From NCBI RefSeq assembly GCF_003702705.1, contig NZ_QZMN01000014.1, positions 1-64,000 of the forward strand: 64,000 nucleotides of DNA. The letters are read 5' to 3'. Positions 10,798 through 36,586 of this stretch are shown piece by piece (positions within the stretch are counted from its first letter, which is position 1; the number at the start of each line of letters is the position of its first letter). The translations under genes were made by a program, and so were the position numbers. Under the pieces are notes generated by a model. That model was not told the origin of the DNA. It saw only the letters and a list, made by a program, of their open reading frames with translations, and ran no database searches. Source of the stretch: Ornithinimicrobium cerasi. Its GTDB lineage: Bacteria > Actinomycetota > Actinomycetes > Actinomycetales > Dermatophilaceae.

Positions 10798-10868
10798 GTC
10801 CCGTAGAAGAGGGTCCCGTGGAAGTGCGGCGCTCTGCCTCATTCCCACGGGACGCTCTTTCACGGGAC
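10798..10868. repeat. palindrome 1L flanking AbiEi-DUF559 gene 1
   Basis: A 71-bp imperfect palindrome. The arms at 10798-10823 and 10842-10868 pair almost throughout and each contains two GTCCCGTG/CACGGGAC words. It lies upstream of the AbiEi-DUF559 gene. Its reverse complement matches the copy at 12045-12116 in about 62 of 72 positions (hand alignment); in direct orientation the match is poorer. As RNA or single-stranded DNA it would fold into a long hairpin. Confidence 0.8.
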
Positions 10869-10983
10869 CGGTGGGGACGCGGTCGGCACGCGGTTGGCAC
10901 CCGTGCCCTGTGGACGACGGGCCAGCTCGGCACCCGCCGCGTGGCAGCCTCAGGGTCGGTGGAGATGGGGTAGGGGGCACGAG

Positions 10984-12024
10984 GTGGCTGGAGGCCAGAT
11001 GCACGGTGGTGGGCCGGCGGGTGGTGGGCGCTCGGGTGGGGACTCCGGGCGTCGCATCTGGGCACCGACGTCGGCCAGCCGGCTGGCACGGCTGACCGCG
11101 ATCGGGGACCGTGTCGCCGCCCGGTACTCCGGGGTGGCGCGTCGGGGGGACCTGCTCGCGGCCGGCCTGACGCGGGACGACGTGGACGGCCAGTTGCGAC
11201 GAGGTGCCTGGCACCGCGCCGGCGTCCGCACCATCTGCGTCGACGGCCGCACGCCGCGGGGCCAGGGTCTGCTCTGGCAGGCGTTGTGGGAGTCGGGGCC
11301 GCGCTCCGTCCTCGACGGACCGTCCGCCCTCATCGCCGCAGGGCTGACCTCCTGGACGGAGGCGGAGGTCCACGTGTCCGTGCCGAGGAACGCCACCGTC
11401 CGTCCGCTCGACGGGGTCCGGCACCACATCCTGCGGGACGTCGGGCCCGCGATCCGGACGGGTCTGCGGCGGACCCGGCCCGAGGTCGCCCTCGTCCGCG
11501 CGGCGGAGTGGGCCAGGACGGACCGCGCCGCCGCCACCATCCTCGCCATGGCCGTGCAGCAGCGTCTCGTCTCGACCTCCGCGCTCCTCGACCGGTGGCG
11601 AGGAGTAGGACGCTCACGACGACGCCGGACCCTCGACGGGGTCATCGGGGACATCTGCGACGGCGCCCACTCGATCAACGAGCTCGACGTCGTGGACGTG
11701 TGCCGGGCCCGTGGCCTGCCGACGCCGTCACGTCAGGTGGTGCGGACCGGTCCGGACGGGCGGGTGTATCTCGACCTCCTCTGGGACGACGAGGGGGTGC
11801 ATGCCGAGGTCCAGGGAGCGCATCACTTCGTCGGCCTCACGCTCGTCAGGGACGCGCTTCGGCTGAACAGCCTGTCGATCTCCAGCCCCACGACGATCAG
11901 CCTGCAGATCCCGGTCCTCGGATGGCGCGTCGACCCCGAGCCGTTCGTGCAGCAGATCGCGATGGCCCTGGCCGAGGGGCGACGACGCCGACTGGACCAC
12001 GGCCTAGGGCGTCCCACGACCTAG
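10984..12024 (+). CDS. AbiEi-like/DUF559 nuclease-like protein 1
   Basis: Protein of 346 aa from a GTG with a TAGGGG box 7 nt upstream; an ATG at 10999 with GGAGG is an alternative start. The region RLARLTAIGDRVAARYSGVA onward resembles the AbiEi N-terminal winged helix, ending in the GAWHRAGVRTICVDG strand. The C-terminus (about residues 258-335) is a DUF559/Vsr-like nuclease fold with D264 and E275. The usual E-x-(D/K) is E-x-Q here, followed by HH, so activity is uncertain. It is flanked by palindromes 1L and 1R. Two paralogues occur at 28.2 and 35.6 kb. Function unknown; an antitoxin-like regulator or a nuclease are both possible. Confidence 0.75.
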   Translation: MAGGQMHGGGPAGGGRSGGDSGRRIWAPTSASRLARLTAIGDRVAARYSGVARRGDLLAAGLTRDDVDGQLRRGAWHRAGVRTICVDGRTPRGQGLLWQALWESGPRSVLDGPSALIAAGLTSWTEAEVHVSVPRNATVRPLDGVRHHILRDVGPAIRTGLRRTRPEVALVRAAEWARTDRAAATILAMAVQQRLVSTSALLDRWRGVGRSRRRRTLDGVIGDICDGAHSINELDVVDVCRARGLPTPSRQVVRTGPDGRVYLDLLWDDEGVHAEVQGAHHFVGLTLVRDALRLNSLSISSPTTISLQIPVLGWRVDPEPFVQQIAMALAEGRRRRLDHGLGRPTT

Positions 12025-12044
12025 CGGTCCCACCGCGTCAGGGT

Positions 12045-12116
12045 GTCCCTTGAAAAGAGCGTCCCGTGAAAGTGAGCCAGAACGCCTCACTCCCACGGGA
12101 CCCTCTTCCACGGGAC
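12045..12116. repeat. palindrome 1R flanking AbiEi-DUF559 gene 1
   Basis: A 72-bp imperfect palindrome starting 20 bp after the stop of the AbiEi-DUF559 gene. Arms GTCCCTTGAAAAGAGCGTCC and CCCACGGGACCCTCTTCCAC pair closely. It is an inverted copy of the element at 10798-10868. It could double as a transcription terminator for the nuclease-like gene, but has no T-run. Confidence 0.8.
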
Positions 12117-12208
12117 GGTGGCCGGAGGCGACCACGCTGGCCACGGGACACCCGCCGCAGGGCACAAAGGAGTGGACTCCGCCACCTCCACCTGCCACCC
12201 TCGCTCCC

Positions 12209-13924
12209 GTGGGGCACGTCGAGCTGAGCCAGATCTCCTACGTCCTGCCGGACGGCCGTCCGCTGCTGGACGAGGTCGGCTTCCGCGTCGGCGAGGGCGA
12301 GAAGGTCGCGCTCATCGGCCCCAACGGCACCGGCAAGACGACCCTCCTGCGCATCGTCGCCGGTGACCTCGACCCGCACGGGGGCAGCGTCACCCGCACC
12401 GGCGGGCTCGGCGTCATGCGGCAGTTCATCGGGTCGCTGCGCGACGACTCCACCGTCCGCGACCTGCTCGTCTCCGTCGCGCCGGAGCGGATCGTCACCG
12501 CCGCACGGGCCCTCGACACCTCCGAGCTCGCCATGATGGAGGTCGACGACGAGCCGGCGCAGATGGCCTACGCCCAGGCGCTCGCGGACTGGGGCGACGT
12601 CGGCGGCTACGAGCAGGAGACCCGCTGGGACGAGGTCACCACCGCGGCGATCGGCATCCCCTACGAGCGGGCCCAGTGGCGCCGCGTCTCCACCCTCTCC
12701 GGCGGGGAGCAGAAGCGCGTCGTCCTCGAGGCGCTGCTCCGCGGACCGGACGAGGTGCTGCTGCTCGACGAGCCGGACAACTACCTCGACGTCCCGGGGA
12801 AGCGCTGGCTCGAGGACCAGCTGCGCGCCACGCCCAAGACCGTCCTGCTCGTCAGCCACGACCGCGAGCTGCTCAGTCGGGCGGCCACCCGCGTGGTCAC
12901 CCTCGAACCGGGTGCGGCGGGGGCCTCGGCCTGGACGCATGCCGGCTCCTTCGCCACCTGGCACCAGGCCCGGGCCGAGCGCAACGCCCGGCTGGAGGAG
13001 TCGCTGCGACGCTGGGAGGAGGAGCACGCCAAGCTGCGCCGGCTCATGCTCCTCTACAAGCAGAAGGCCTCGTACAACGCCGACATGGCCGCCCGCTACC
13101 AGGCCGCCCAGACCCGGCTGCGCCGCTTCGAGGAGGCCGGGCCCCCGGAGAAGGTCGCCCGCGACCAGAACGTCACCATGCGCCTCACCGGCGGTCGCAC
13201 GGCCAAGCGCGCGGTGATCTGCGAGCGGCTCGAGCTGCTCGCGCCCGGACCCGCCACCGGTCCGTCCGTCGACCCGCTCATGCACCCCTTCGACCTGGAG
13301 ATCTGGTATGGCGAGCGCGTCGCCGTGCTCGGGTCGAACGGGTCGGGCAAGTCGCACCTCCTGCGGCTGCTGGCGGCCGGGGGCAGCGACCCCGACCTCG
13401 AGCACCAGCCGGTGGGGGACACCCCGCCGGCGCCGGTGCGGCATACCGGGTCCGCCCGGCTCGGCTCGCGGGTGCGCCCCGGCTGGTTCGCGCAGACCCA
13501 CGAGGGGCACGGCCTCGCGGGTCGCACGCTGCTGGAGATCCTGCACCGCGGGGACGACCACCGGCGGGGTCGCACCCGCGAGGAGGCCTCCCGGGTGCTC
13601 GACCGCTACGAGCTGGCCCACCAGGCCGAGCAGACCTTCGACACGCTCTCCGGCGGGCAGCAGGCGCGGTTCCAGATCCTCCTGCTCGAGCTGTCCGGCG
13701 CGACCCTGCTGCTGCTCGACGAGCCGACGGACAACCTCGACCTCGACTCCGCCGAGGCGCTGGAGGAGGGGTTGCGCACGTTCGACGGCACGGTCGTCGC
13801 GGTCACCCACGACCGGTGGTTCGCCCGCGGCTTCGACCGGTTCCTCGTGCTGGGCGCCGACGGCGAGGTCTACGAGGCGGACGAGCCGGTCTGGGACGAG
13901 GAGCGCGTGCGGCGACGGCGTTGA
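12209..13924 (+). CDS. ABC-F family ATPase
   Basis: Soluble protein of 571 aa with two ABC domains and no membrane segments, hence ABC-F. The first domain has GPNGTGKTT, LSGGEQKRV and LLLDEPDNYLD. A charged linker rich in Arg/Glu follows (about residues 245-325). The second domain has GSNGSGKSH, LSGGQQARF and LLLDEPTDNLDLD. The family acts on the ribosomal E-site, as translation factors or antibiotic-protection proteins. DEPDNYLD replaces the usual DEPTNHLD in domain 1, and the second Walker A ends in GKSH. The start is chosen at GTG because the preceding 53 codons are low-complexity and overlap palindrome 1R; CACCCT lies 7 nt upstream. Confidence 0.88.
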   Translation: MGHVELSQISYVLPDGRPLLDEVGFRVGEGEKVALIGPNGTGKTTLLRIVAGDLDPHGGSVTRTGGLGVMRQFIGSLRDDSTVRDLLVSVAPERIVTAARALDTSELAMMEVDDEPAQMAYAQALADWGDVGGYEQETRWDEVTTAAIGIPYERAQWRRVSTLSGGEQKRVVLEALLRGPDEVLLLDEPDNYLDVPGKRWLEDQLRATPKTVLLVSHDRELLSRAATRVVTLEPGAAGASAWTHAGSFATWHQARAERNARLEESLRRWEEEHAKLRRLMLLYKQKASYNADMAARYQAAQTRLRRFEEAGPPEKVARDQNVTMRLTGGRTAKRAVICERLELLAPGPATGPSVDPLMHPFDLEIWYGERVAVLGSNGSGKSHLLRLLAAGGSDPDLEHQPVGDTPPAPVRHTGSARLGSRVRPGWFAQTHEGHGLAGRTLLEILHRGDDHRRGRTREEASRVLDRYELAHQAEQTFDTLSGGQQARFQILLLELSGATLLLLDEPTDNLDLDSAEALEEGLRTFDGTVVAVTHDRWFARGFDRFLVLGADGEVYEADEPVWDEERVRRRR

Positions 13925-13969
13925 GCCCGCCGGCGCGCGGCATACCTGCGCGTCCCGCAGGATGGGCCG

Positions 13970-14905
13970 GTGCAGACCTTCCTCCCCGTCGCGGACTTCG
14001 GGGCGAGCGCCCGGCTCCTGGACCCGGCCCGCCTGGGCAAGCAGCGGGTGGAGACGCTGCAGGTGCTGCGCGCCCTGGAGCTGCCGGACTACGGGTGGGC
14101 GGCGCACCCGGCCGTGCGGATGTGGCGGGGGCGGACACCCGCGCTCGTCGCCTACGGGCTGGCCACCGTGCGCGCCTGGCGGGACGTCGGGCACGCGGAC
14201 AGCACCGGGCCGCAGATCGCCGAGTTCGCCCCCCAGGTGGTGGGGATGACGCAGGAGGAGCTGGACCGGGCCGGTCTGCTGCCGAGCTGGCTCGGGGACG
14301 AGGCCCTCCACCGCTCGCACCGGTCCAACCTCCTCGCCAAGGACCCCGCCTACTACCGGCCCCGGTTCGAGGCCGAGTTCGGGCTGGAGCCCGACGACCT
14401 GCCCTACGTCTGGCCGGAGGGTGACGACCTCCCCGCGGACGAGCCTCCCGAGGGGGTGCGGGTGTGGGTGGTGCGGCCGAAGGGGGACGGCGAGCTCGGG
14501 GTATGCCTGGGGGCGGGGGTCGTGGGGCTGGACGCCCGGTCGGGGGTCGAGGTCGACGCCGACGGCCTGCGGCCGGAGGAGCTGAGTGCTCTTGCGCGCG
14601 AGCGCACCGGCCGGCGGCCGGCCAAGGACCTGCGGCAGCTGTCGACGTTCCTGGACGAGGTGAGCCCGGGCGACGTCGTGGCGGTGCCGGTCGAGGACGG
14701 CACCGGGCTGCTGCTGGGCGAGGTGGTCGGTGGCTACCTCTTCGCCGGGGGCGACGGGCCGCTGCCGCACCGGCGGCAGGTGCGGTGGAGGCAGGTCGTG
14801 CCCCGCTCGGCCGCGCTGCGGCCGTTCACGCTGCAGGACCCACGGGGGCTGTTCGCCGTGGTGCTCGATCCTGCGCAGGTCGGACCTGTCAGCAGCGCTG
14901 GTTAG
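13970..14905 (+). CDS. Pyr_excise-like DNA glycosylase fused to Mrr-N/PUA-like domain
   Basis: Protein of 311 aa with two parts. Residues 1-150 (MQTFLPVADF, LLDPARLGKQRVE, WAAHPAVRMWRG) match the MSMEG_6728/Pyr_excise family, related to T4 pyrimidine-dimer glycosylase; the early Thr and the LGKQRVE motif are typical. Residues about 162-300 (VWVVRPKGDGELG, LSTFLDEVSPGDVV, GEVVGGYLF, HRRQVRW) fit the small PUA/EVE-like reader domain seen at the N-terminus of Mrr-type restriction proteins. I infer a repair or modified-base-recognising enzyme. GTG start with CAGGAT 6 nt upstream, so probably leaderless. Confidence 0.75.
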   Translation: MQTFLPVADFGASARLLDPARLGKQRVETLQVLRALELPDYGWAAHPAVRMWRGRTPALVAYGLATVRAWRDVGHADSTGPQIAEFAPQVVGMTQEELDRAGLLPSWLGDEALHRSHRSNLLAKDPAYYRPRFEAEFGLEPDDLPYVWPEGDDLPADEPPEGVRVWVVRPKGDGELGVCLGAGVVGLDARSGVEVDADGLRPEELSALARERTGRRPAKDLRQLSTFLDEVSPGDVVAVPVEDGTGLLLGEVVGGYLFAGGDGPLPHRRQVRWRQVVPRSAALRPFTLQDPRGLFAVVLDPAQVGPVSSAG

Positions 14906-14908
14906 GCT
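14903..14908 (+). promoter_or_regulatory. -10 box of paaN (leaderless)
   Basis: TAGGCT ends 6 nt before the paaN ATG, overlapping the stop region of the glycosylase-like gene. No ribosome site precedes the start. Confidence 0.6.
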
Positions 14909-14914
14909 GACGTC

Positions 14915-16627
14915 ATGCCGAACACCGCAACGCTGCCGTCGACGCACCCGCTCCTCGAGGCCCACCGTGAGACCCTCGACGCCGCCGCCCGCGCGCTGCG
15001 CGAGCGCAGCTACTACAGCCGCTACCCGGAGTCCCCGAGCCCGCGGGTCTACGGCGAGACCGCGCCCCAGGACGGGCAGGCGGCGCACGAGGCGACCCTG
15101 AACAAGGACTTCGAGGCCCTTGCCGGCCAGCCCTCGACCGGTGCGGTCGTCGGCTCGGAGGTGAGCCCCTTCGGCCCCCGGCTCGGCGTCCGCTACCCCC
15201 AGCTCGACGTGCCGCGCGCGATGGAGGCGGCCCTGGCCGCCATGCCCGCCTGGCGGGACGCCGGTGCCGAGGTGCGGGCCGCCGTCTGCACCGAGATCAT
15301 CGAGCGGATCAACCGTCGGTCCCACGAGATGGCGCACGCCGTGATGCACACCAGCGGCCAGCCCTTCGTCATGTCCTTCCAGGCGGGCGGACCGCACGCC
15401 CAGGACCGCGCGCTGGAGGCTGTCGTCGCGGCGCTCGAGGAGCAGCGTCGGTTCCCGGCGTCGGTGGTGTGGGAGAAGCCGGCCAAGGGGGAGCCGGTGC
15501 GGATGCAGAAGGACTACCGGGTGGTCCCGCGCGGGGTCGCGCTGGTCATCGGCTGCAACACCTTCCCGACCTGGAACGCCTATCCCGGCCTCTTCGCCAG
15601 CCTCGCCACCGGCAACCCGGTGATCGTCAAGCCCCACCCCCGGGCGGTCCTGCCGCTCGCCCTCACCGTGGCCATCGCCCGGGAGGTGCTGGCCGAGGCG
15701 GGCTTCGACAGGGCACTGGTCCAGCTCGCCGCCGAGGACGACGGGGGCACCCTCGCCAAGGACCTGGCGCTGGACGACGCCGTGAAGATCATCGACTACA
15801 CCGGCGGTCCCGGTTTCGGAGGCTGGCTGGAGACCGAGGCGGCCGCCCGGGGCAAGCTCGTCTACACCGAGAAGGCCGGGCTCAACAGCGTCGTCGTCGA
15901 CTCCACCGACGACCTGCGCGGGACGCTGGGCAACCTCGCCTTCTCCTTCTCCCTCTACTCCGGCCAGATGTGCACCGCGCCGCAGAACGTCTTCGTGCCC
16001 GCGACCGGCGTCGGGACCGACGAGGGCCACCTGAGCGCCGAGGAGTTCACCGGGCGGCTCGCCGAGGCGATCAGCCGCTTCACCGCCGACGACGCACGGG
16101 CCGTGGAGATCCTCGGGGCCACGGTCAACGACGACGTCCGCGGCCGGGCCACCGACGTGCCGGCCCTCGCCGAGCGGCTGGGGGGCGAGGTCGTCCTCGA
16201 CTCCCGCGCGGTGACGCACGCGGCATACCCCGACGCGGTGGTGCGCACCCCCGCCCTCGTCGCGGTCGACGCGGGCAACGCGACGGCCTACACCCAGGAG
16301 TGCTTCGGCCCCGTCGCGTTCGTGGTCCGCACCGCCGACACCGGGGAGTCGCTGCGCATCTTCGCCGACACGGTGCGCGAGCACGGCGGCATGACGGCGG
16401 CCGTCTACTCCTCCGACGAGCAGGTGCTCGAGGCGGCGCGCGACGCCGCCGCGGAGGCGGGCGTGGCGCTCTCGGAGAACCTCACCGGCCAGGTGTTCGT
16501 CAACCAGACCGCGGCGTTCTCCGACCTGCACGGCACGGGCGCCAACCCGGCCGCCAACGCCGCCTACGCCGACGCCGCGTTCGTGGCGAACCGGTTCCGC
16601 GTCATCACCAGCCGCCGGCACGTCTGA
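14915..16627 (+). CDS. paaN: phenylacetic acid degradation protein PaaN (ALDH family)
   Basis: Aldehyde-dehydrogenase-fold enzyme of 570 aa. The cofactor region VALVIGCNTFPTWNAYPGLF, the glutamate-type motif EKAGLNSVVV and the cysteine motif SLYSGQMCTAPQNVFVPA are visible. It resembles actinobacterial PaaN, which acts after oxepin-CoA ring cleavage to oxidise the open-chain semialdehyde. Unlike E. coli PaaZ it has no fused MaoC-type hydratase domain, so ring hydrolysis would need a separate hydratase. It stands apart from the other PAA genes on the opposite strand and has its own leaderless promoter. Confidence 0.9.
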   Translation: MPNTATLPSTHPLLEAHRETLDAAARALRERSYYSRYPESPSPRVYGETAPQDGQAAHEATLNKDFEALAGQPSTGAVVGSEVSPFGPRLGVRYPQLDVPRAMEAALAAMPAWRDAGAEVRAAVCTEIIERINRRSHEMAHAVMHTSGQPFVMSFQAGGPHAQDRALEAVVAALEEQRRFPASVVWEKPAKGEPVRMQKDYRVVPRGVALVIGCNTFPTWNAYPGLFASLATGNPVIVKPHPRAVLPLALTVAIAREVLAEAGFDRALVQLAAEDDGGTLAKDLALDDAVKIIDYTGGPGFGGWLETEAAARGKLVYTEKAGLNSVVVDSTDDLRGTLGNLAFSFSLYSGQMCTAPQNVFVPATGVGTDEGHLSAEEFTGRLAEAISRFTADDARAVEILGATVNDDVRGRATDVPALAERLGGEVVLDSRAVTHAAYPDAVVRTPALVAVDAGNATAYTQECFGPVAFVVRTADTGESLRIFADTVREHGGMTAAVYSSDEQVLEAARDAAAEAGVALSENLTGQVFVNQTAAFSDLHGTGANPAANAAYADAAFVANRFRVITSRRHV

Positions 16628-16647
16628 GCGGCCGGGGAGACGGGGGT

Positions 16648-17463: not shown

Positions 17464-17635
17464 TCGCCCGGCAGCCCGTGCGCAGGCTTGCCCCCCGTGG
17501 CCAAGCACAGCACCCCCTCCTCCGCCGGGTGCCTTCGTGCTGCGCGACCCGCGCGAGCTGCCCCGGGTCCTCGTCGATGTCGTCGCCCGCCGCGCCCCCT
17601 GACAGGCGGACTCACCGGCTGGCAGGATGCGCGCC

Positions 17636-18667: not shown

Positions 18668-18710
18668 GGACGCGGCACCCGCCCAGCGACCGTGCGCAGG
18701 TCACCCGCCT

Positions 18711-18758
18711 GAGTGGCTGGTGCACGCCAGGACGGGTAGGCGCGGGCAGGCGCCACTC
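18711..18758. repeat. intergenic palindrome, first of tandem pair
   Basis: GAGTGGC at 18711-18717 pairs with GCCACTC at 18752-18758 at the ends of a 48-bp unit. The unit resembles the next palindrome (18765-18812): both read, on the minus strand, CGTGAGTGGCGC, then TACCCG, then a CGTGC word. It lies between the convergent hydrolase and deoD genes. Confidence 0.6.
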
Positions 18759-18764
18759 ACGAGA

Positions 18765-18812
18765 GTGAGTCGGGCACGTCCTGTGCGGGTATGGCGTGCC
18801 CGCGCCACTCAC
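18765..18812. repeat. intergenic palindrome, second of tandem pair
   Basis: GTGAGTCGGGCACG and CGTGCCCGCGCCACTCAC form arms. CGGGCACG (18771-18778) and CGTGCCCG (18795-18802) pair perfectly, as do the outer GTGAGT and ACTCAC. Between convergent genes it could terminate both transcripts, yet the tandem duplication suggests a REP-like element. Confidence 0.65.
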
Positions 18813-18831
18813 GTGGGTTGCGCGCGCCCGG

Positions 18832-19551: not shown

Positions 19552-19559
19552 GGGGGACA

Positions 19560-27963: not shown

Positions 27964-27969
27964 GACCAC

Positions 27970-27979: not shown

Positions 27980-28097
27980 GTCGCGCGGCATACCCCCCTC
28001 CCTCCCCTGGACGACCACCTCCGCTCCACCGGGCCTCCCGTCCCCCGCTCCCACTGGCCGCCCGTCCCCCCTCCGCCTGGCCGCCCCTCCGTGTCAA

Positions 28098-28149
28098 GGT
28101 GCGGTCACCTTGCCGGGACCTTCATCACCCTGTAGCGCGATGAAGGTCC
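28098..28149. repeat. palindrome 2L flanking AbiEi-DUF559 gene 2
   Basis: A 52-bp element made of GGTGCGGTCACC (28098-28109), a 6-nt gap, and a perfect 11-bp inverted repeat: GGACCTTCATC at 28116-28126 and GATGAAGGTCC at 28139-28149. It matches the element at 29227-29278 at about 41 of 52 positions with the same internal spacing. It lies 26 bp beyond the 3' end of the minus-strand AbiEi-DUF559 gene. Confidence 0.85.
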
Positions 28150-28175
28150 GGCGGAGGCGATTGCACCACGTGGGG

Positions 28176-29132
28176 TCAGCCCGCGCGTCGTGCCGTGGCC
28201 AGCGCGGCCCCGACGAGCGACCGCACCCGCTCGGGACGGGAGAGGTCCGACCAGATGAGGCGGACGACGACGTACCCGGCCCGCTGCAGCCGTATCTCGC
28301 GACGCTTCTCGCGCACGAGCGCGTCGGGGGACGCGTACTTGACCATGCCGTCGAACTCGACGATGACCCTCGTCCCCTGCAGCAGGAAGTCCACCCTGCC
28401 GATGACCGCACCGAGCTCGTCCCGGATGACGACCTGCGGCACCGGGGTGTATCCGAGCCCACGGAGCAGCAGCCTGCTCAGGGTCTCCCCGGGTGACTCG
28501 GTCCGCGCGTCCATGAGGTCGATGGCCCGCACGAACGTGGCGTGCACGGGATGGTGCGGTCGGGTGACCACGGCCGTGCGCAGGGCGTCGTGGGTGACCA
28601 GCTGCCGGTGCAGGGCGGCGTCCCCCACGACGACGGCCTCGTCGCGCCCGCGCAGCTGCGCCACCCCCATCACGACGAGGACCGGCTCCAGGACCTCGAC
28701 ACCGTGCACGGTGGTGTGCCGAGCGTCGGTGTAGCCGGTGTGGATGGTCGAGCCGGCCCGCCGGCGGTGCTGCCCGGCGCCCCGCCGGCACCCGTGGACC
28801 CGGTCGGGGACGACGGTGAGCGGCAGGCCGTGCATCAGCGCGGCGCTCGTGTGGCTCACCAGGACGTCAGGCGGCCAGGTCCTGGCGACCGCGGTCGCCC
28901 GCAGGACGTGCCGGCCGGCTGGGTCGGCACGCTCGTGACGGTCGCCGTCGACGAAGGCGGACCGGCCCACCCGACGGAGGACGCCCGCGGCCACGAGCCG
29001 GCGCACGCCGTCCGGTCCTACGCCGAGACGGTGCAGGTCGGCGCTCGTCACCGTGCCGGCGTGGAGCCGCAGCTCACGACGCACCAGGTCCAGCTGGCCG
29101 GGCGGAAGGCGGAGATCGTGGGAGGACGTCAC
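28176..29132 (-). CDS. AbiEi-like/DUF559 nuclease-like protein 2
   Basis: Protein of 318 aa. The N-terminal AbiEi-type winged helix runs from LDLVRRELRLHAGTVTSADL to VGRSAFVD, and a middle region is shared with abortive-infection antitoxins (VSHTSAALMHGLPL). The C-terminal DUF559/Vsr-like domain has D248, E259, D261 and K265 (VDFLLQ, VEFDGMVKY), then EKRREIRLQRAGYVVVRLIW. The residues needed by PD-(D/E)XK nucleases look present. The GTG at 29132 has CACAGT 7 nt upstream and fits the domain start. It lies on the same strand just after a uvrA-like gene and is flanked by palindromes 2L and 2R. Function unknown. Confidence 0.82.
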   Translation of the reverse strand: MTSSHDLRLPPGQLDLVRRELRLHAGTVTSADLHRLGVGPDGVRRLVAAGVLRRVGRSAFVDGDRHERADPAGRHVLRATAVARTWPPDVLVSHTSAALMHGLPLTVVPDRVHGCRRGAGQHRRRAGSTIHTGYTDARHTTVHGVEVLEPVLVVMGVAQLRGRDEAVVVGDAALHRQLVTHDALRTAVVTRPHHPVHATFVRAIDLMDARTESPGETLSRLLLRGLGYTPVPQVVIRDELGAVIGRVDFLLQGTRVIVEFDGMVKYASPDALVREKRREIRLQRAGYVVVRLIWSDLSRPERVRSLVGAALATARRAG

Positions 29133-29226
29133 CCGGTCCACTGTGCCGAAGCCAGCCCCGGTCCTGACCGCGTTGTCCACAGGCTGCGTCCTGGGCCTGA
29201 ATGGCCCGACCACAACCCTTCACCCA

Positions 29227-29278
29227 GGTGCGGTCACCACGATGGGACCTCCATCACGCTGGAGGGTGATGGAGGTCG
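29227..29278. repeat. palindrome 2R flanking AbiEi-DUF559 gene 2
   Basis: GGTGCGGTCACC (29227-29238), a 6-nt gap, then a perfect 12-bp inverted repeat: GACCTCCATCAC at 29246-29257 and GTGATGGAGGTC at 29266-29277 with an 8-nt loop. It is the upstream partner of palindrome 2L and separates the nuclease-like gene from the uvrA-like gene. Confidence 0.88.
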
Positions 29279-29325
29279 GCCGGGGGTGAGCGCACTCCGC
29301 AGGCCGGACTCGGACGCGACCACCC

Positions 29326-31815
29326 TCAGCCGGTCCGTGGCCCCGACGCCACCACCCGCCCACCCTCGTCGCCGGCTCCGGGCCCGACCTCGACGAGCCA
29401 GTCCGCGGTCGCGACGGCCGCCGGGTCGTGCTCGGCCAGCAGCACCGTGTGGCCGGCGTCGACGAGGGCGTGCAGGACCGACAGCAGCCGGTGCACGTCG
29501 GCGGGGTGCAACCCGGAGGTCGGCTCGTCGAGGACGTAGAGGGTCGGTGCGCGGCGCTCCTTCTGCAGCTCGGTGGCGAGCTTGATCCGCTGCGCCTCGC
29601 CGCCGGAGAGCTCGGTGGCCGGCTGGCCGAGGGTCAGGTAGCCCAGGCCCAGGGCCTGCAGGGCCTCCAGCGCGCGCCGCGCCGCGGGCAGCTCGCGGAG
29701 CACCTCCAGGGCCTCGGACACGCTGCGCCGCAACAGGTCCGCGACGGTCAACCCGTGCCAGCGCACCTCCAGCGTCTGCGGGCCGAAGCGGTCGCCCCGG
29801 CAGTCGGGGCACAGCGAGTAGGTCCCGGGCAGGAAGAGCAGCTCGACGGACACTGCCCCCTCGCCCTGGCAGGTCGGACACCGCCCGGCCGCGGTGTTGA
29901 AGCTGAACCGGCTCGCCCGGAATCCGCGCTCGCGCGCGTCGGGGGTCGCGGCGTAGGCCGCCCGGACGGCGTCCCACAAGCCGGTGTAGGTCGCCAGGGT
30001 GGAGCGGGGTGACCGCCCGATCGGCTTCTGGGTGATCCGCACGACCCGGGTCGGTATGCCGTCCCCGCTCGCCCGGGCGCGCGCCGCGCCCCCGCCGCCC
30101 CGCTCCTCCCGGCCGGTGCCCTCGTCCGCCGCGGCGTCGTCCTCGTCCTCGAGCTCCGCCTCGTCCTCGACGCTGGCCAGCCGTTCACCCACGACGTCGT
30201 GCACCGCGTCGAGCAGGCTGGTCTTGCCCGACCCGGAGATCCCGGTGACGACGATGAGGGCACCGAGCGGCAGGTCGAGGTCGGCGCCGCGCACGGTGTG
30301 ACGGCTCAGCGCGGAGAGCGCAAGGGTGCCGGTCCCGCGGCGCGGCGGTCCCTCCCGGACCTCCTCGGGATGGACGGGCCGGGAGAGGTAGCGGGCGGTG
30401 ACGGACCCCGCGGCACGGGGAAGCCCGTCCAGCACCCCGGACCACAGCACGCTGCCGCCCTCGTCCCCGGCCCCCGGACCGACGTCCACCACCCAGTCGC
30501 ACCCGGCCACGACCCCCATGTCGTGCTCGACGACGATCACCGTGTTGCCGGCGGCGACCAGGCCGCGCAGGAGGGCGACGAGCCGCTCGGTGTCCTGCGG
30601 GTGCAGCCCCGCGGACGGCTCGTCGAGCACGTAGACGACCCCGAACAGCCCCGACCGCAGCGCCGTCGCCAGCCGGAGCCGCTGCAGCTCGCCCGACGAC
30701 ACGGTCGTCGTCCCCCGACCGAGCGAGAGGTGGCCCAGGCCGAGGTCGACCATGAGCGAGAGGCGCCCGACGAGGTCCTCGAGCAGCACCCGCTCGGCCT
30801 CCTCCCGGGCGCTCGGCCCCGCTGGCACCACCGACCCTCCGGTCCGTCCGCGCGGACCCGCCGGTGGTGGGAGGGCGAGCTGCGCGAGACGGGCGCCGAG
30901 CAGGTCGAGCAGGTCGGTGACGGGGAGGGCGGACGCCTCGTCGACCGCGAGCCCCTCCCAGGTCACGGCCAGCGCGTCCGGGCGCAGGCGCCGACCCGCG
31001 CAGACCTCGCAGGGGTGCGTCTCGACATACCGGAGGGCGCGGCGGCGCTGGGAGACCGAGCGGGTCTCGGCGAGGGTGCGCAGGACGTAGCGGGAGGCGG
31101 AGGAGAAGGTGCCCCGGTAGGGGCGGGAGATGCGCTCCGGGTCACGGGTGGGCACGACCGTGACGACCGGCTGCTCGTCGGTGAACAGGACCCACTCGCG
31201 GGTGGCCGCCGGCAGGTCGCGCCACGGGACGTCGACGTCGTGACCCAGGGTCGAGACGATGTCGCGGTAGTTCTTGCCCAGCCACGCCCCGGGCCACGCC
31301 GCCACCGCCCCGTCGGCGATCGAGCGCGACGGGTCGGGGACCATCGCAGCCTCGGTGGGCAGGTGCCGCACGCCCAGGCCCCCGCAGCCCGGGCAGGCGC
31401 CGACGGCCGTGTTGGCGGAGAAGTGGTCGGAGTCCATCGGCGCCACGCCGTCCGGGTAGTCGCCGCAGCGCGACCACAGCATCCGCAGCGTGCTGCCCGC
31501 GGTGGTCGCCGTGCCGACGCTGGAGCGTGTCGAGGCGCCGCCGCGGCCCTGCTCGAGCGCGACGGTCGGCGGCAGTCCCTGGACGTCACCGACCTGCGGG
31601 TCGACCGCCGCATGGATGAGGCGGCGGGCGAACGGGGCGACCGAGTCGAGGTAGCGGCGCTGCGCCTCGCCGTGGATCGTGCCGAACGCCAGGCTCGACT
31701 TGCCCGACCCGGACACCCCGGTCACCGCGACGAGCGCGTCGCGGGGCAGGTCGACGTCGACGTCGCGCAGGTTGTGCAGGCGCGCGCCCCTGACGCGGAT
31801 GGAGTGCTCGCTCAC
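29326..31815 (-). CDS. UvrA-like ABC ATPase (short UvrA paralogue) 1
   Basis: Protein of 829 aa, shorter than housekeeping UvrA (about 950), as in UvrA paralogues lacking the UvrB-interaction domain and in DrrC-type drug-resistance proteins. The first Walker A GVSGSGKSS is at about 33-41, with zinc-type pairs CPGCGG and CEVCAG and the signature VSSGELQRLRLATAL. The second half has GISGSGKTS, CPTCQG, CPDCRG, LSGGEAQRIKLATEL and LDEPTSGLHPADV. An acidic and glycine-rich insert of about 40 residues follows the second Walker A. It likely binds DNA, in repair or intercalator resistance. GTG start with TACCCT 7 nt upstream; the longer frame overlaps the next gene. Confidence 0.87.
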   Translation of the reverse strand: MSEHSIRVRGARLHNLRDVDVDLPRDALVAVTGVSGSGKSSLAFGTIHGEAQRRYLDSVAPFARRLIHAAVDPQVGDVQGLPPTVALEQGRGGASTRSSVGTATTAGSTLRMLWSRCGDYPDGVAPMDSDHFSANTAVGACPGCGGLGVRHLPTEAAMVPDPSRSIADGAVAAWPGAWLGKNYRDIVSTLGHDVDVPWRDLPAATREWVLFTDEQPVVTVVPTRDPERISRPYRGTFSSASRYVLRTLAETRSVSQRRRALRYVETHPCEVCAGRRLRPDALAVTWEGLAVDEASALPVTDLLDLLGARLAQLALPPPAGPRGRTGGSVVPAGPSAREEAERVLLEDLVGRLSLMVDLGLGHLSLGRGTTTVSSGELQRLRLATALRSGLFGVVYVLDEPSAGLHPQDTERLVALLRGLVAAGNTVIVVEHDMGVVAGCDWVVDVGPGAGDEGGSVLWSGVLDGLPRAAGSVTARYLSRPVHPEEVREGPPRRGTGTLALSALSRHTVRGADLDLPLGALIVVTGISGSGKTSLLDAVHDVVGERLASVEDEAELEDEDDAAADEGTGREERGGGGAARARASGDGIPTRVVRITQKPIGRSPRSTLATYTGLWDAVRAAYAATPDARERGFRASRFSFNTAAGRCPTCQGEGAVSVELLFLPGTYSLCPDCRGDRFGPQTLEVRWHGLTVADLLRRSVSEALEVLRELPAARRALEALQALGLGYLTLGQPATELSGGEAQRIKLATELQKERRAPTLYVLDEPTSGLHPADVHRLLSVLHALVDAGHTVLLAEHDPAAVATADWLVEVGPGAGDEGGRVVASGPRTG

Positions 31816-31822
31816 CCGCCCG

Positions 31823-31832
31823 AGGGTATGCC
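31823..31832 (-). promoter_or_regulatory. GGCATACCCT promoter of uvrA-like gene 1 (leaderless)
   Basis: Minus-strand GGCATACCCT puts the -10 hexamer TACCCT 7 nt before the GTG start. Confidence 0.6.
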
Positions 31833-31855
31833 GTGGGCTCGTCGGGTGCGCCCGC

Positions 31856-33100
31856 TCAGACCGTGGTGCCCGGCTCGAGCCGGCCCCCGGCCTCCACGAC
31901 GCGCCCGCCCCCGACCCGGCTGTCGCGACCGACGAGGGTGATCGCCTCGTCGGTGAGCAGGGTGCCCGCAGGCGCGGCGCCGACGCTGGCCCCGCGGCCC
32001 ACCCGGGAGCCCTCGTCGACGACCGCGGTGCGCACGGTCGCACCGGCCTCCACCACGACGTCGCCCAGGAGCACGCTGTCCTCGACGACCGCCCCGCTCC
32101 CCACCTCGACGCGGGGGCCGAGGACGCTGCGCCGCACCGTCCCGCGCACCCGGCTGCCGGGGCCGACCATCGAACCGCTGACCCGGGCCTCGTCGTCGAA
32201 CCACGCTGGCGGGTCCGGGATGCTCGGGGCGAGGACCGGGCGGAGGGGGTGGTCGAAGACGTCGACGCGTCCGGCGAGCAGGTCGCGGTGAGCCTGCAGG
32301 TAGGCCTTCGGCCGGCCGACGTCCCGCCAGTAGCCGGGGAGCGGGTCGGCATACACCCTGCCGCGGTCGACGAGGGCGGGCAGCAGGTGCTCGCCGAAGT
32401 CACCCAGCCCGGTGTCGCCGTGCTCCGTCGCGTCCTGGTGCAGCAGGACGCGCAGCCGCTCCAGCTCGGCGACGAGGACGGCGGGCTCGTAGAGGAAGAT
32501 CTCGACCGCCACGGTGCCGGTCCGGGTGGAGGAGGGCTTGTAGTCGACGGCGGACACCAGGCCCTCGGCGTCGGCGTGGACGACCATGTTGTGGACGGCC
32601 TCCCGCACGCCGACCTCGGCCGTGACGACGGTGCACTCCGCTCCGCGCTCGAGGTGCCGGCTGACCATCGGGCGCAGGTCGGCGGAGAAGACGTGGTCGG
32701 CGGAGAGGACGAGGAGGACGTCGGGGTCGAAGGCCAGGATCTCGTCGCGCAGCCGGAACAGCCCGTCGGCGTTGCCGTGGCTGAAGCCGTCGTCCTGCGC
32801 CGGGCCGGAGCCCTGCTCGGGCGTGATCCTCCGGAAGCCGCCGTGGGTGCGGTCGAGGTCCCACGGGCGCCCGCCGGCCAGGTAGGTGTCCAGGGTGCTC
32901 GACTGGTACTGCACGCTCACCCAGACGTCCGTGACCCCGCTCGCGACGAGCGAGGAGAGGGGGAAGTCGACGAGGGCGTGCGTCCCGGCGAAGGGGAGCG
33001 CCGGCTTGGCACGCTCGCGCGTCAGCACGTCCATGCGGCTGCCCGCACCGCCCGCCTGCACGATCGCGAGGGTCCGCAGCCCCACCGGCAGAGTCGTCAC
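31856..33100 (-). CDS. GlgC-like sugar-phosphate nucleotidyltransferase
   Basis: Protein of 414 aa, the usual size for actinobacterial GlgC. The N-terminal nucleotidyltransferase motif AGGAGSRMDVLTRERAKPAL deviates from GGxGxRLxPLTxxRAKPA at the RLxP part. LSADHVFSAD carries the metal-binding Asp, and GYWRDVGRPKAYLQAH is typical of ADP-glucose pyrophosphorylase. The last 110 residues form left-handed beta-helix repeats (VGPGSRVRGTVRRSVLGPRV). It could make ADP-glucose for glycogen or maltosyl transfer, but the altered motif leaves the substrate open. GTG start with TACACT 7 nt upstream. Confidence 0.82.
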   Translation of the reverse strand: MTTLPVGLRTLAIVQAGGAGSRMDVLTRERAKPALPFAGTHALVDFPLSSLVASGVTDVWVSVQYQSSTLDTYLAGGRPWDLDRTHGGFRRITPEQGSGPAQDDGFSHGNADGLFRLRDEILAFDPDVLLVLSADHVFSADLRPMVSRHLERGAECTVVTAEVGVREAVHNMVVHADAEGLVSAVDYKPSSTRTGTVAVEIFLYEPAVLVAELERLRVLLHQDATEHGDTGLGDFGEHLLPALVDRGRVYADPLPGYWRDVGRPKAYLQAHRDLLAGRVDVFDHPLRPVLAPSIPDPPAWFDDEARVSGSMVGPGSRVRGTVRRSVLGPRVEVGSGAVVEDSVLLGDVVVEAGATVRTAVVDEGSRVGRGASVGAAPAGTLLTDEAITLVGRDSRVGGGRVVEAGGRLEPGTTV

Positions 33101-33107
33101 CCGGGGG

Positions 33108-33113
33108 AGTGTA
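33108..33113 (-). promoter_or_regulatory. -10 box of GlgC-like gene (leaderless)
   Basis: The minus strand reads GGCATACACT, so TACACT ends 7 nt before the GTG start at 33100. Confidence 0.55.
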
Positions 33114-33256
33114 TGCCGCCCCCCCTCATCCCTGTCGGCCGGTCGGGACCGGCGCGCTGGGGGACCCGCGCGGTGGCCTCGTCACGGGTGCGTGTCGCCG
33201 GTGTGTGATGGCTCACGGTGCGAAATAGATGACGGTTCAACCGAGTTGGACAGGTC

Positions 33257-33787
33257 ATGAAGATCGGCATCGTCATCAGCACCACCCGTCCCTCGCGCAT
33301 CGGCCACCGCGTCGCCGGGTGGATCGCCTCCCAGGCGCCCGAGGGCGTCACCGCGGAGGTCGTGGACCTCGCAGAGGTGGCCCTGCCGTTCTTCGCGGAC
33401 AGCGCCCACCCGAAGCTGGGCCGCTACACCGAGCCCGCGACGATCGCCTGGGCCGAGCGGGTCTCCGGCTACGACGCGATGATCTTCACCGTCGCCGAGT
33501 ACAACGGCGGCTACCCCGCCCCGCTGAAGAACGCCATCGACGCCCTCTACCCCGAGTGGAACGACCTTCCGGTCGGTGTCGTCGGCTACGGCTGGGGCGG
33601 CGCCGGTCGCGCCGTCACCGCCCTGCGCCCCGTGCTGGAGAACATCAAGGCCGTCCGCGTCGACGGCCCGGCCCTCACCTTCGGCACCCACCTCACGCCC
33701 GAGGGCGAGTTCCTCACCGACGCGCGCGACCTGGCCGTCCCCGCGCTCTACGCCGACCTCGCCGCCCGGGTGCCCGCCCGCGTCTGA
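33257..33787 (+). CDS. NADPH-dependent FMN reductase
   Basis: Flavodoxin-fold reductase of 176 aa. The N-terminus MKIGIVISTTRPSRIGHRVA carries the phosphate-binding STTRPSR loop of the SsuE/ArsH/chromate reductase group, and YDAMIFTVAEYNGGYPAPLK is the flavin-binding signature PEYNGG in variant form (AEYNGG). It reduces FMN or quinones with NADPH and is cytoplasmic. GGACAGG in front of the ATG could serve as a ribosome site. It is divergent from the GlgC-like gene. Confidence 0.9.
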   Translation: MKIGIVISTTRPSRIGHRVAGWIASQAPEGVTAEVVDLAEVALPFFADSAHPKLGRYTEPATIAWAERVSGYDAMIFTVAEYNGGYPAPLKNAIDALYPEWNDLPVGVVGYGWGGAGRAVTALRPVLENIKAVRVDGPALTFGTHLTPEGEFLTDARDLAVPALYADLAARVPARV

Positions 33788-33867
33788 CCGCCCCCGCGCT
33801 CCCCGACCGCCGCATCCAGGGCCGGCCGGGAGCGGGTCGTGCTCGGATCAGGCGAGGCGCCACCGCA

Positions 33868-33873
33868 TACCCT
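33868..33873 (+). promoter_or_regulatory. -10 box of pseudo-hydrolase gene (leaderless)
   Basis: GCATACCCT: the hexamer TACCCT ends 6 nt before the GTG at 33880. Confidence 0.6.
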
Positions 33874-33879
33874 GCCCCT

Positions 33880-34530
33880 GTGAGCCAGCCAGCACCTGAC
33901 GCGACGCCCCTCGTCCTCCTCCACGGCACCGGCCAGGCGCCCATGGCGTGGGAGGACGTCGTGGTGGCGCTCTACGGGTCCCGGCGGCTGCTGACCCCGT
34001 GGGTCCCCGGGCTGAAGCCGACCGACAGGCGCTCGCTGCCGCTCGACCAGGCGGCCGCCGCGCTCGACACCCAGCTCATGCTCGAGGGGATGGAGCAGGC
34101 CGACGTGTGCGGTCTCGGGCTGGGGGCGATGGTCGCGGCCCAGCTCGCCGCGGACCACCCGGGGCGGGTCCGCAGGCTGGTGCTCGTGGGCGGGCAGGTC
34201 AGGCCCTCCCGCGCCGCGCTGCGGATGCAGTCGGGGCTGGTCAGGCTGGCCCCCGCCGCACGCCTGGCCGACGCGGGTCTGTCCAAGAACCGGCTGCTCG
34301 AGGCGCTCTCGGTGGCTCGCGACCTCGACCTCACCCTGGTCCTCCCGAGGATCACGGCGCCGACGCTCGTCGTCGTCGGCGGCACCGACCGGGCGGGGCA
34401 GCTGGGTGCCCGCGCGCTGGTCGACGGGATCGCGGGGGCCCGGCTGCGGGCGGTCCCCGGGTCGGGTCCTGCGGTCAACGTGGACGCGCCCGCCGAGCTG
34501 GTGACCGTGCTGCGGGAGTTCCTCGACTGA
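33880..34530 (+). CDS. alpha/beta-hydrolase-fold protein lacking the catalytic dyad
   Basis: Protein of 216 aa with the overall pattern of an alpha/beta hydrolase: PLVLLHGTGQAPMAWEDVV, a helix after the elbow AMVAAQLAADHPGRVRRLVL, and VVVGGTDRAG before the C-terminal helix. The nucleophile elbow normally written GxSxG reads GLGLG, so the serine is glycine. The position of the general-base His reads SGPAVN instead of GH. The gene looks otherwise intact, so it probably lost hydrolysis and became a binding protein. This is inference from two positions. Confidence 0.78.
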   Translation: MSQPAPDATPLVLLHGTGQAPMAWEDVVVALYGSRRLLTPWVPGLKPTDRRSLPLDQAAAALDTQLMLEGMEQADVCGLGLGAMVAAQLAADHPGRVRRLVLVGGQVRPSRAALRMQSGLVRLAPAARLADAGLSKNRLLEALSVARDLDLTLVLPRITAPTLVVVGGTDRAGQLGARALVDGIAGARLRAVPGSGPAVNVDAPAELVTVLREFLD

Positions 34531-34565
34531 CGGGGGTCGGTCGGTCCCGGTCGGGGTGCCCGACC

Positions 34566-35336
34566 TCAGCGGCCCGGGAGGCCGGTCCGGTCAAGCCGCG
34601 CCAGGAGGGCGAGCTGGGTGCGGCGCTCGCGCGCCAGGGTCAGGTATGCCGGTGCCGTCACCGCTCCGTCGAGCAGCCGCTTGGCCCTCGCCACGGCCCG
34701 GGGGTCGTGCCGCACGACCTGGGACACCAGCTCGTCCGCCACGGCCGCAGCGTCGACGGCGACCCGCGTCGCCAGGCCGAGCCGCACCGCCTCGGTGCCG
34801 TCCACCGACCTGGCGGTCAGCGTCAGGTCCTTGGCGACGTCGAGGCCGACGACCTCGGTGAGCGTGCGGGTCCCGCCCATGTCCGGCACCAGCCCCCAGC
34901 GCACCTCGCGCACCGACCACTGCGCGTCCGGGGTCGTCACCCGCAGGTCCGCGCCGAGCGCGAGCTGGAGTCCGGCGCCGAGGCAGTGACCGTGCACGAC
35001 CGCGACCACCGGCACGGGCAGCCGGCGCCAGGCCCAGCAGGCCTCCTGGAACACGTTGGTGCCCGTCCACGGACGTGGGACGAAGCGTGCGGCGATCCCG
35101 CCCGGCCGCCGCAGCGCAGCCCGCAGGTCGAGCCCGGCGCAGAACGTCTCGCCCTCGCCCGACAGCAGCACGGCCCGGACCGACCGGTCCCGGCGCAGCG
35201 ATCGTGCGGTCGCGACCAGCTCGTCGAGCATCTCCAGCGTCAGCGCGTTGAGCTTGTCGGGCCGGGCGAGGCGCACCCGCGCCACCCCCTCCGCGACCTC
35301 GCAGGTGACCGTCCCCGCCAGCGTGAGCGCCGTCAT
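34566..35336 (-). CDS. enoyl-CoA hydratase/isomerase family protein
   Basis: Crotonase-fold protein of 256 aa. The oxyanion region GETFCAGLDLRAAL and the turn VVHGHCLGAGLQLALGADLR are clear. The active-site segment WSVREVRWGLVPDMGGTRTL has Glu and Asp near the usual acid positions. It hydrates or isomerises 2-enoyl-CoA esters; the exact substrate is open. It is not adjacent to the PAA genes. The ATG at 35336 with CATGCT 7 nt upstream is preferred; one at 35348 adds four residues. Confidence 0.88.
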   Translation of the reverse strand: MTALTLAGTVTCEVAEGVARVRLARPDKLNALTLEMLDELVATARSLRRDRSVRAVLLSGEGETFCAGLDLRAALRRPGGIAARFVPRPWTGTNVFQEACWAWRRLPVPVVAVVHGHCLGAGLQLALGADLRVTTPDAQWSVREVRWGLVPDMGGTRTLTEVVGLDVAKDLTLTARSVDGTEAVRLGLATRVAVDAAAVADELVSQVVRHDPRAVARAKRLLDGAVTAPAYLTLARERRTQLALLARLDRTGLPGR

Positions 35337-35428
35337 ACGCGCGAGCATGCCACGGACGCGCCCGCCACCGACCGGGCAGCCCGACGCCTACGCCGCCCAA
35401 CGTCCACCGCCTCCGCCTGCCTCACGCT

Positions 35429-35500
35429 CGACTCACGACCGTCTTCTGTTCTGTGCGTCGGATGGATCGGACTCTCAGCACAGAACCTGGTCGCGAGTGG
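35429..35500. repeat. palindrome 3L flanking AbiEi-DUF559 gene 3
   Basis: A 72-bp nested palindrome. The outer arms are CGACTCACGACC (35429-35440) and GGTCGCGAGTGG (35489-35500); the inner perfect 9-bp arms are GTTCTGTGC (35448-35456) and GCACAGAAC (35478-35486). It matches the 72-bp element at 36515-36586 at 60 of 72 positions in direct orientation without gaps. Confidence 0.9.
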
Positions 35501-35587
35501 CCGCCGCAGTCATCTCGCCGTGAAGTTGTCCACAGGCCGTCGCCCGCTGGACGGTGACAGGAGCAGTTCCGGCTCAGACTGGCGGCC

Positions 35588-36511
35588 ATGGATCCGCGAG
35601 TGCGCAGCCACCTCGACAGCTTCTCCGGCGTGCTCTCGACGAGGGCGGCGGTCAGGCTCGGGCTGACGGCCAACGACCTCCGGGCGATGGTCGCCGCCGG
35701 CGAGCTCGTCCGGGTGGCGCACGGTGCCTACCTCGACGCCGCCCTGCTGGTCGGCGCGACGCCGGAGGAGGACCACCGGCTCCGAGTGACCGCGATCGTC
35801 CTGGCCAAGGGTGGGTCGGTCGCCGCGAGCCACCACAGCGCCGCGGTGCTGCACGGGCTGCCGGTCCTGCGCGAGGCCCTCGGCTCGATCAGGGTGGCTC
35901 ACACGCGGTCACGGTCGAACACCCGGAGGCGCCCCACCTTCACCCTGCACCGGTGCCCGGGCGAGGACGCGTTCGGCAGTGTCGGCCCGGTCGCGACGGT
36001 CGTCCCGGCGCTCGCCGTGATCGGCACCGCGGTGCTCGTGGGCGTGCGGTCGGGGTTGATGGCTGCCGACGCGGCGCTGCGCGGTGAGCTGACGACCCGC
36101 GATGAGATGGCGAGCTGGCTCGTCCGGTGGTCCCGCGTGCCCGGCGTCGACCGCGCCAGGCACGTCGTGGACCTGATGTCCCCGCTGGCGGAGTCGCCCG
36201 CCGAGTCGCTCCTGCGCCTCGCGCTCATCGCGCTGCGGCTCGACTTCGTTGAGCAGCACCCGCTCGAGCTGGAGGGCTGGACCGCGCGCGTCGACTTCTA
36301 CCTTCCTGCGCTGGGTGTCGTGGTCGAGATGGACGGCATGTGCAAGTACGAGGGGAGCACCGGTTCGTTGAACCTCGCGGCCGAGAAGAGGCGGGAGGAC
36401 CAGATTCGCGCTCGTGGCTACGGGGTCGCGAGGATCGAGTGGGCCGACCTCTTCAGGCCCCAGCGCATCCACGCGAAGATCAGGGCTGCTGCGCTGACCT
36501 CCCGCGTCTGA
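35588..36511 (+). CDS. AbiEi-like/DUF559 nuclease-like protein 3
   Basis: Protein of 307 aa. The N-terminal AbiEi-type winged helix begins VRSHLDSFSGVLSTRAAVRLG and ends VRVAHGAYLDAAL. The middle part has VAASHHSAAVLHGLPVL. The C-terminal DUF559/Vsr-like nuclease domain has D236, E247, D249 and K253 (RVDFYLPALGVVVEMDGMCK), then EKRREDQIRARGYGVARIEW. D to E spacing is 11 residues, as in the other two paralogues. CAGACT lies 7 nt before the ATG. It is flanked by palindromes 3L and 3R, and a uvrA-like gene follows. Its biochemical role is unknown. Confidence 0.83.
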   Translation: MDPRVRSHLDSFSGVLSTRAAVRLGLTANDLRAMVAAGELVRVAHGAYLDAALLVGATPEEDHRLRVTAIVLAKGGSVAASHHSAAVLHGLPVLREALGSIRVAHTRSRSNTRRRPTFTLHRCPGEDAFGSVGPVATVVPALAVIGTAVLVGVRSGLMAADAALRGELTTRDEMASWLVRWSRVPGVDRARHVVDLMSPLAESPAESLLRLALIALRLDFVEQHPLELEGWTARVDFYLPALGVVVEMDGMCKYEGSTGSLNLAAEKRREDQIRARGYGVARIEWADLFRPQRIHAKIRAAALTSRV

Positions 36512-36514
36512 GGT

Positions 36515-36586
36515 CGACTCACGACCGGCTTGTGTCCTGTGAGTCGGATCGATCAGACTCACACGGCAGAACCAGGTCGTGAGTGG
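36515..36586. repeat. palindrome 3R flanking AbiEi-DUF559 gene 3
   Basis: A 72-bp nested palindrome beginning 3 bp after the stop codon. Outer arms CGACTCACGACC and GGTCGTGAGTGG pair at 11 of 12 positions. GTGAGTCGGATCGATCAGAC forms part of the inner stem. It is the direct partner of 3L and may also end transcription of the nuclease-like gene. Confidence 0.9.

Follow-up and report, generated by a model that had tools for sequence, protein, structure and literature searches.

Predicted nuclease genes bracketed by palindromes, with further palindrome copies scattered through the genome, suggest a previously undescribed kind of mobile DNA

We analysed a 64,000-nucleotide stretch of Ornithinimicrobium cerasi DNA (the window; assembly GCF_003702705.1, contig NZ_QZMN01000014.1, positions 1–64,000) in which three genes for predicted nucleases are each bracketed by two diverged copies of their own 68–72 nt palindrome. 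Gene 1 (10984–12024, plus strand) lies between copies of palindrome T1 at 10798–10868 upstream and 12045–12116 downstream. Gene 2 (28176–29132, minus strand) lies between copies of palindrome T5 (the WIN2 type) at 29226–29297 upstream and 28097–28167 downstream, and gene 3 (35588–36511, plus strand) between copies of palindrome T3 at 35431–35498 and 36517–36584. The downstream T1 copy matches its upstream partner best in inverted orientation (86%). With the start codons assigned in an earlier note on this DNA, the palindrome edge lies 115, 93 and 89 nt from the start of genes 1, 2 and 3, and the stop codon lies 20, 8 and 5 nt from the downstream copy.

The earlier note had described these pairs by hand alignment and had stated that they differ between genes. 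Both statements are confirmed. The repeat finder recovers pair 1 as inverted arms of 94 nt (77% complementary) or as a direct repeat of 62 nt (81%), pair 2 as a direct repeat of 70 nt (77%) and pair 3 as a direct repeat of 73 nt (84%), and T1, T5 and T3 are distinct types, unlike one another. When the two flanks of a gene are aligned with each other, genes 1, 2 and 3 score 61, 44.5 and 50, whereas the same score for 43 other genes of the window has a mean of 21.4, a standard deviation of 4.7 and a maximum of 31, which places the pairing beyond chance. An additional long imperfect palindrome at 18743–18830 has ends, CCACTCACG...CACTCACGTGG, that resemble the outer motif of T3, and from this resemblance it is possibly a diverged solo copy of that type.

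The genes had been called AbiEi-DUF559 nuclease-like, an identity that holds in full for gene 2 (AbiEi_4, 3.9e-7; DUF559, 3.1e-5), of which the AlphaFold2 (AF2) model has a pLDDT (predicted local distance difference test score) of 94.4. Gene 3 matches AbiEi_4 only (2.4e-6), its nuclease region being placed by alignment with gene 2 and relatives, and the gene 1 protein matches neither family in Pfam; its AbiEi-like reader and Vsr/EDxHD-like domain are assigned from a predicted fold of moderate confidence (pLDDT 77.9). The N-terminal part of the family is AbiEi-type by Pfam, PADLOC and fold, and the best match of the nuclease domain among solved structures is the homing endonuclease I-Bth0305I. 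Its invariant acidic residues are D236 and E247 in the numbering of gene 3. As modeled, the family proteins are AbiEi-type DNA readers fused to a predicted Vsr/EDxHD nuclease domain. PF04480 matches six places and PF13338 ten places in the window genome (G000; 3.83 Mb, 87 contigs). Used as a query, the gene 3 protein has 141 matches spread over all 32 genus genomes, one to nine in each; the genus set comprises Ornithinimicrobium and Serinicoccus species of the order Micrococcales. The same protein found no match at 1e-5 by tblastn in plasmid and phage collections that omit much actinobacterial DNA, a result that speaks weakly against carriage by plasmids or phages.

Flanking pairs are common among these relatives. 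We took 80 of the 141 matches, mostly from the top of the list and from 27 genomes, with 4 kb on either side, and counted a pair at a score of at least 40. By this measure 50 of the 80 same-genus relatives carry a flanking repeat pair, compared with 1 of 406 other genes of the same loci. The possibility raised in the earlier note, that such palindromes are no more frequent around these genes than around random ones, is not borne out. The lone control exception (L119, score 113) has the downstream palindrome of a family gene on one side and, on the other, a third copy of that type. When the upstream flank of one locus was aligned with the downstream flank of another, 18 of 800 combinations scored, as is expected because orthologous loci share palindromes. 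Copies typically lie 60–290 nt before the start of the match and, at the other end, between −30 and +220 nt relative to the stop; the order of the two may be direct or inverted. In a test restricted to ungapped hairpins, both flanks reached at least 30 at 17 of 88 family loci and at none of 406 controls; the downstream flank alone (32/88 versus 79/406) does not separate the two sets because control genes share spacers with family genes. Beyond the genus, a scan of named genomes found a pair at seven of ten related loci, in Janibacter hoylei, Rhodococcoides fascians, Dermacoccus abyssi, Nostocoides, Phycicoccus, Curtobacterium and Williamsia, and the two copies are nearly identical in D. abyssi (67/67) and R. 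fascians (65/66). Elsewhere in the window genome, loci L007, L014 and L015 have repeat pairs as well, and the AbiEi-type gene L013 (contig C22, ∼88.9 kb) is flanked not by a single palindrome but by inverted arrays of CACCGAGGCCACGGTGTGC-like units (80/103).

The palindromes share an internal architecture. When each arm of 25 palindrome types is compared with itself at a shift d, identity shows one sharp peak at d = 19 (0.408 versus 0.267 in shuffles that preserve pairing; z 8.4), and no other shift between 8 and 28 departs from the shuffles by more than z 1.5. For the most part, it is the outer 8–10 nt of the arm that recur. T1 departs from this pattern with a repeat at 15, and several types have no clear repeat. 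Internal repeats had been spotted by eye in the T1, T3, T5, D. abyssi and R. fascians types before the test, and all of these are among the 25. The autocorrelation test replaced one based on the best shared k-mer, which gave a mean of 5.88 versus 2.77 in shuffles, with zero in 3 of 25 types and many types not significant alone. The peak at 19 appears as well (0.383) in 54 family hairpins that were collected automatically. The 66 hairpins intended as controls peaked equally (0.395), because, of the 60 distinct hairpins among them, 49 are no more than 450 bp away from a family gene. The remaining 11 likewise peak at 19 (0.414, z 4.3) and again at 22 (z 3.8), and six of these match the palindrome that belongs to the family gene of the same locus (scores 62–97). 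As no unrelated set of long hairpins was obtained, shuffling is the sole clean control for this signal. We read the 19-nt repeat as two putative binding positions per half-site.

Dispersed solo copies are present for all five palindrome types that were searched through whole genomes, the outcome of a genome-wide check proposed in the earlier note. T5, queried with the copy from L077, occurs at 16 places in G012, of which two flank its gene and 14 are solo, and at seven places in the window genome, two of them flanking gene 2. There are four T5 copies in G016, three in G031 (one beside gene L092) and one each in G020 and G013, where the related genes L084 and L101 carry another palindrome; none was found in the 26 other genus genomes. 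Mean identity among T5 copies is 0.878 in G012, 0.774 in G000 and 0.729 in G016 (n = 6 pairs), the most diverged. T3 occurs at six places in the window genome and at two in G031, which has a 76%-identical gene, and has no copy in the 30 other genus genomes. The T1 search, which used non-coding DNA only, gave six places in the window genome, eight in G001 and six in G023, with weaker or partial matches in 11 further genomes (E up to 0.01). The D. abyssi type has eight solo copies and the R. fascians type three, with none of either in five other genomes. Of the 49 solo loci that we inspected, 44 are extragenic, versus 15% of random positions, the gene calls resting on open reading frame length and codon bias only; 19 of these 44 fall between convergent genes and one between divergent genes. 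By eye, CCCG...CGGG flanks are common to solo copies of T5, not to those of T1 or T3, and no shared target-site duplication was seen in the flanks of solo copies.

Palindrome type follows gene type across genomes. In G001 and G023, two T1 matches 1.2–1.3 kb apart bracket genes that are 73% and 71% identical to gene 1, and among 20 other T1 loci read, those in G021, G028, G003 and G020 adjoin relatives of gene 1 (61–64%). Starting from the palindrome, the gene was thus reached in six genomes in addition to that of the window. Gene 2, L077 and L092 are 59–69% identical, carry the same palindrome type and have unrelated neighbours. Non-syntenic gene pairs share a palindrome in 3 of 16 cases at 60% or more protein identity, in 5 of 170 at 50–60% and in 9 of 3434 below that. 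The idea that palindromes simply become more alike as protein identity rises was rejected, the overall trend being weak (Spearman 0.055).

Orthologous spacers occur with and without the gene. The spacer between a ROK-family kinase gene and an IMP dehydrogenase gene (both by Pfam), which we take to be ppgK and guaB, holds a family gene in 10 of the 30 genomes read and none in 19, of which 16 were measured at 6–890 bp. In G016 it holds a broken family gene in pieces (L161, 662 bp), 86% identical to L064, with both palindromes flanking. Occupants of different groups are 36–59% identical and their neighbours 75–94%, and in G011 the gene is inverted; additional in-place inversions occur at L094, at L083/L089 and in gene 3 relative to L047. 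G019 and G026 have a palindrome without a gene in this spacer, belonging to the L057 and L095 types (scores 64 and 80), and the eight other spacers tested (33–662 bp) score 24 or less. Gene-free ppgK–guaB spacers (the L172–L186 group; G024, G005, G006, G007, G002 and G017) contain short inverted or repeated units, e.g. GGTTTCGTAG / CGAAACC, that resemble REPINs (doublets of repetitive extragenic palindromes, REPs), and the G019 spacer has six tandem ACCATGGCGGTTGATCC units.

A second spacer, between a methionine-aminopeptidase-like gene (map; M24 by Pfam) and infA, named by motif, measures 86–230 bp in 27 of 30 genomes. A family gene with its pair is found there in G030 only (L057). The spacer of its relative G019 is 301 bp long and has an L057-type palindrome (score 42), that of G012 has a solo T5 copy (score 109), and no other spacer exceeds 22 for the three palindrome types tested. 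The G024 spacer reads as 835 bp, probably through a misplaced stop. The map–infA site is seen here in three states: empty, palindrome only and palindrome–gene–palindrome. At the WIN3 locus, two of the 27 loci read contain the gene, one in each orientation; the rest are not strict empty sites, since their upstream neighbours differ.

We consider it reasonably probable that each gene makes up, together with its palindromes, a selfish system of two parts, in which REP-like palindromes are spread by a nuclease of homing type, not of HUH type. The palindrome (about 58–72 nt, two half-sites, each with its outer motif repeated 19 nt inwards) would serve as the protein's cognate site; the AbiEi-type N-terminal part, acting as a dimer or higher oligomer, would read this site, and the Vsr/EDxHD domain at the C-terminus would nick or cut there. 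Repair or recombination at such cuts could then copy the palindrome to new intergenic places, producing solo copies, and sometimes copy the gene between two palindromes, producing gene-bearing loci, in-place inversions and swaps of family members; after loss of the gene, solo copies would decay. Binding of the palindrome by the protein, cutting and a role of the nuclease in driving the copying are the steps that we infer. A wider proposal we hold more tentatively, as a serious possibility: these genes may represent selfish DNA of a new class, in which the symmetric ∼70 bp site of a homing-type nuclease is itself the replicating unit, read by the AbiEi domain, cut by the Vsr/EDxHD domain and copied across the chromosome by host repair, now and then with the gene between two sites, the lineages having diversified into many mutually exclusive gene–palindrome pairs across the Actinomycetes.

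Several observations weigh against this selfish system. A nuclease of the Vsr/EDxHD fold is not known to transfer strands on its own, which would leave copying dependent on host repair. At the threshold used, 30 of the 80 relatives lack a pair, and at L051, L074, L100 and L107, which have no scoring pair, one flank palindrome is kept and a copy of the same type lies a few kilobases off. G016 has its four T5 copies and no T5-type gene in a search that detects such genes at 1e-35. Among the 14 genomes with T1 matches, seven have no cognate gene beside the copies examined, those loci alone having been read. The palindromes also diverge fast, as the 5 of 170 non-syntenic pairs at 50–60% identity attest. 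Finally, the mobile or self-amplifying palindrome–nuclease module proposed in the earlier note gains from pairing far above controls, from solo copies and from gene-free orthologous spacers, but the clean joins at empty sites that the note had proposed to look for were not resolved: neither a target-site duplication nor an exact join could be placed, because the spacers of related species are too diverged.

The protein might instead be a DNA-binding regulator, possibly a defence nuclease, with the upstream palindrome as its operator and the downstream and dispersed copies as other sites that control or insulate genes, none of it selfish. The consulted part of PMC7319586 describes S. agalactiae AbiEi and Rv2827c as autoregulatory proteins, each binding 23-bp inverted repeats upstream of the gene that encodes it, and the 19-nt repeat resembles a platform for several protomers. 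We nevertheless judge a regulon unlikely, as a second copy follows the stop codon, copies come and go at orthologous sites, and the preference of extragenic solo copies for convergent over divergent gene pairs (19 to 1 among 44) is the reverse of what operators would give. Ordinary bidirectional terminators, a refutation posed in the earlier note, or chance hairpins would suit copies that are strong hairpins (−31 to −51.5 kcal/mol), intergenic and often convergent. However, none of the six window copies is followed by a T-run on either strand, and we reject terminators for these six; with the repeat pairs at 50 of 80 relatives versus 1 of 406 controls, the type-specific dispersal and the 19-nt signal, this explanation is very improbable.

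Two further alternatives accept mobility and assign it differently. In a cycle like that of long terminal repeats, the whole palindrome–gene–palindrome unit would insert, solo copies would be recombination scars, and the palindrome alone would be immobile. Solo and gene-bearing states do occur at the same spacer in the sister species G019 and G030, the gene and pair at map–infA are confined to G030, and the flanking copies in D. abyssi and R. fascians (67/67 and 65/66) are more alike than the solo copies. Against such a cycle, G012 has 14 solo T5 copies and one T5 gene locus, and the two copies of a T1, T3 or T5 pair resemble one another no more than they resemble solo copies, which leaves it with a rather slim chance. 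Slimmer again is the chance that another enzyme moves the palindromes in trans while the nuclease gene uses them as safe, tolerated homing sites. The enzyme activity of the family is predicted only and the transposase search covered PF01797 alone, both of which leave room for such a mover, but palindrome type tracks gene type across genomes, genera and loci. Weighing these together, we retain the two-part selfish system.

The arrangement suggests a hitherto undescribed kind of mobile DNA. No description of AbiEi/DUF559–palindrome pairing was found in the titles or abstract openings of the open-licence literature searched, nor in the consulted parts of PMC3733652, PMC12306157, PMC7319586, PMC3943268, PMC4478555 and PMC8266576. 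Among bacterial palindromic repeats, the way of spreading has been worked out for those tied to REP-associated tyrosine transposases (RAYTs) but not for many others; the dispersed palindromes described here are accompanied by a candidate mover that belongs to an unrelated class of enzymes. If the proposal is right, it would give a function to AbiEi-DUF559 proteins, which are found in 32 of 32 genus genomes and otherwise bear antitoxin or unknown-function names only, and a nuclease without strand-transfer chemistry may amplify hairpin DNA. The dozens of natural gene–palindrome pairs can also be used for questions of specificity.

Among known systems, the closest in organization are REPs and REPINs with their RAYT (TnpA-REP), which likewise combine short dispersed intergenic palindromes with a single chromosomal gene that is flanked by copies and to which the type is tied. 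RAYTs are Y1 HUH transposases (PF01797), whereas the partner here combines AbiEi and Vsr/EDxHD folds. PF01797, the one transposase family searched, was found in 0 of 32 genus genomes and in 5 of 14 control genomes, and mobilization of the RAYT/IS200 type was rejected on this result. Unlike REPs, the palindromes here have a 19-nt internal repeat and measure about 58–72 nt, compared with the 20–40 nt given in the consulted part of PMC3733652. By eye, the palindrome ends and flanks inspected show no shared tag like the GTAG or CGTC of REPs. The system therefore works like a REP/RAYT pair and is not a member of that class, given the absence of the Y1 family from all 32 genomes and the different fold of the partner. 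CGTC-tagged REPs are also dispersed palindromes, said in the same part of PMC3733652 to have no dedicated transposase; that text states no AbiEi/DUF559 link, and the two are set apart here by description, not by sequence.

AbiE type IV toxin–antitoxin systems share the AbiEi-type fold, in a family that binds inverted repeats, but here there is an extra nuclease domain, and the palindromes stand on both sides of the gene and are dispersed. Six window neighbours match 3HCDH, ABC ATPase, patatin, UvrA-like, enoyl-CoA hydratase and ABC ATPase families in Pfam, their AAA_21 matches falling on the ABC/UvrA-type proteins, and none matches the nucleotidyltransferase (DUF1814) toxin; as far as these neighbours show, the system is not an AbiE toxin–antitoxin. 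The mobile GC clusters of yeast mitochondria, for which intron endonucleases have been proposed as movers, are likewise dispersed mobile palindromes, but they are organellar and the consulted part of PMC4478555 mentions no cognate flanked gene, so that they offer a parallel only. The homing endonuclease I-Bth0305I shares the fold of the catalytic domain. Unlike I-Bth0305I, the gene here interrupts no coding target, is fused to an AbiEi reader and has a candidate target that is itself dispersed. The system may be a homing-type nuclease whose site became the mobile unit.

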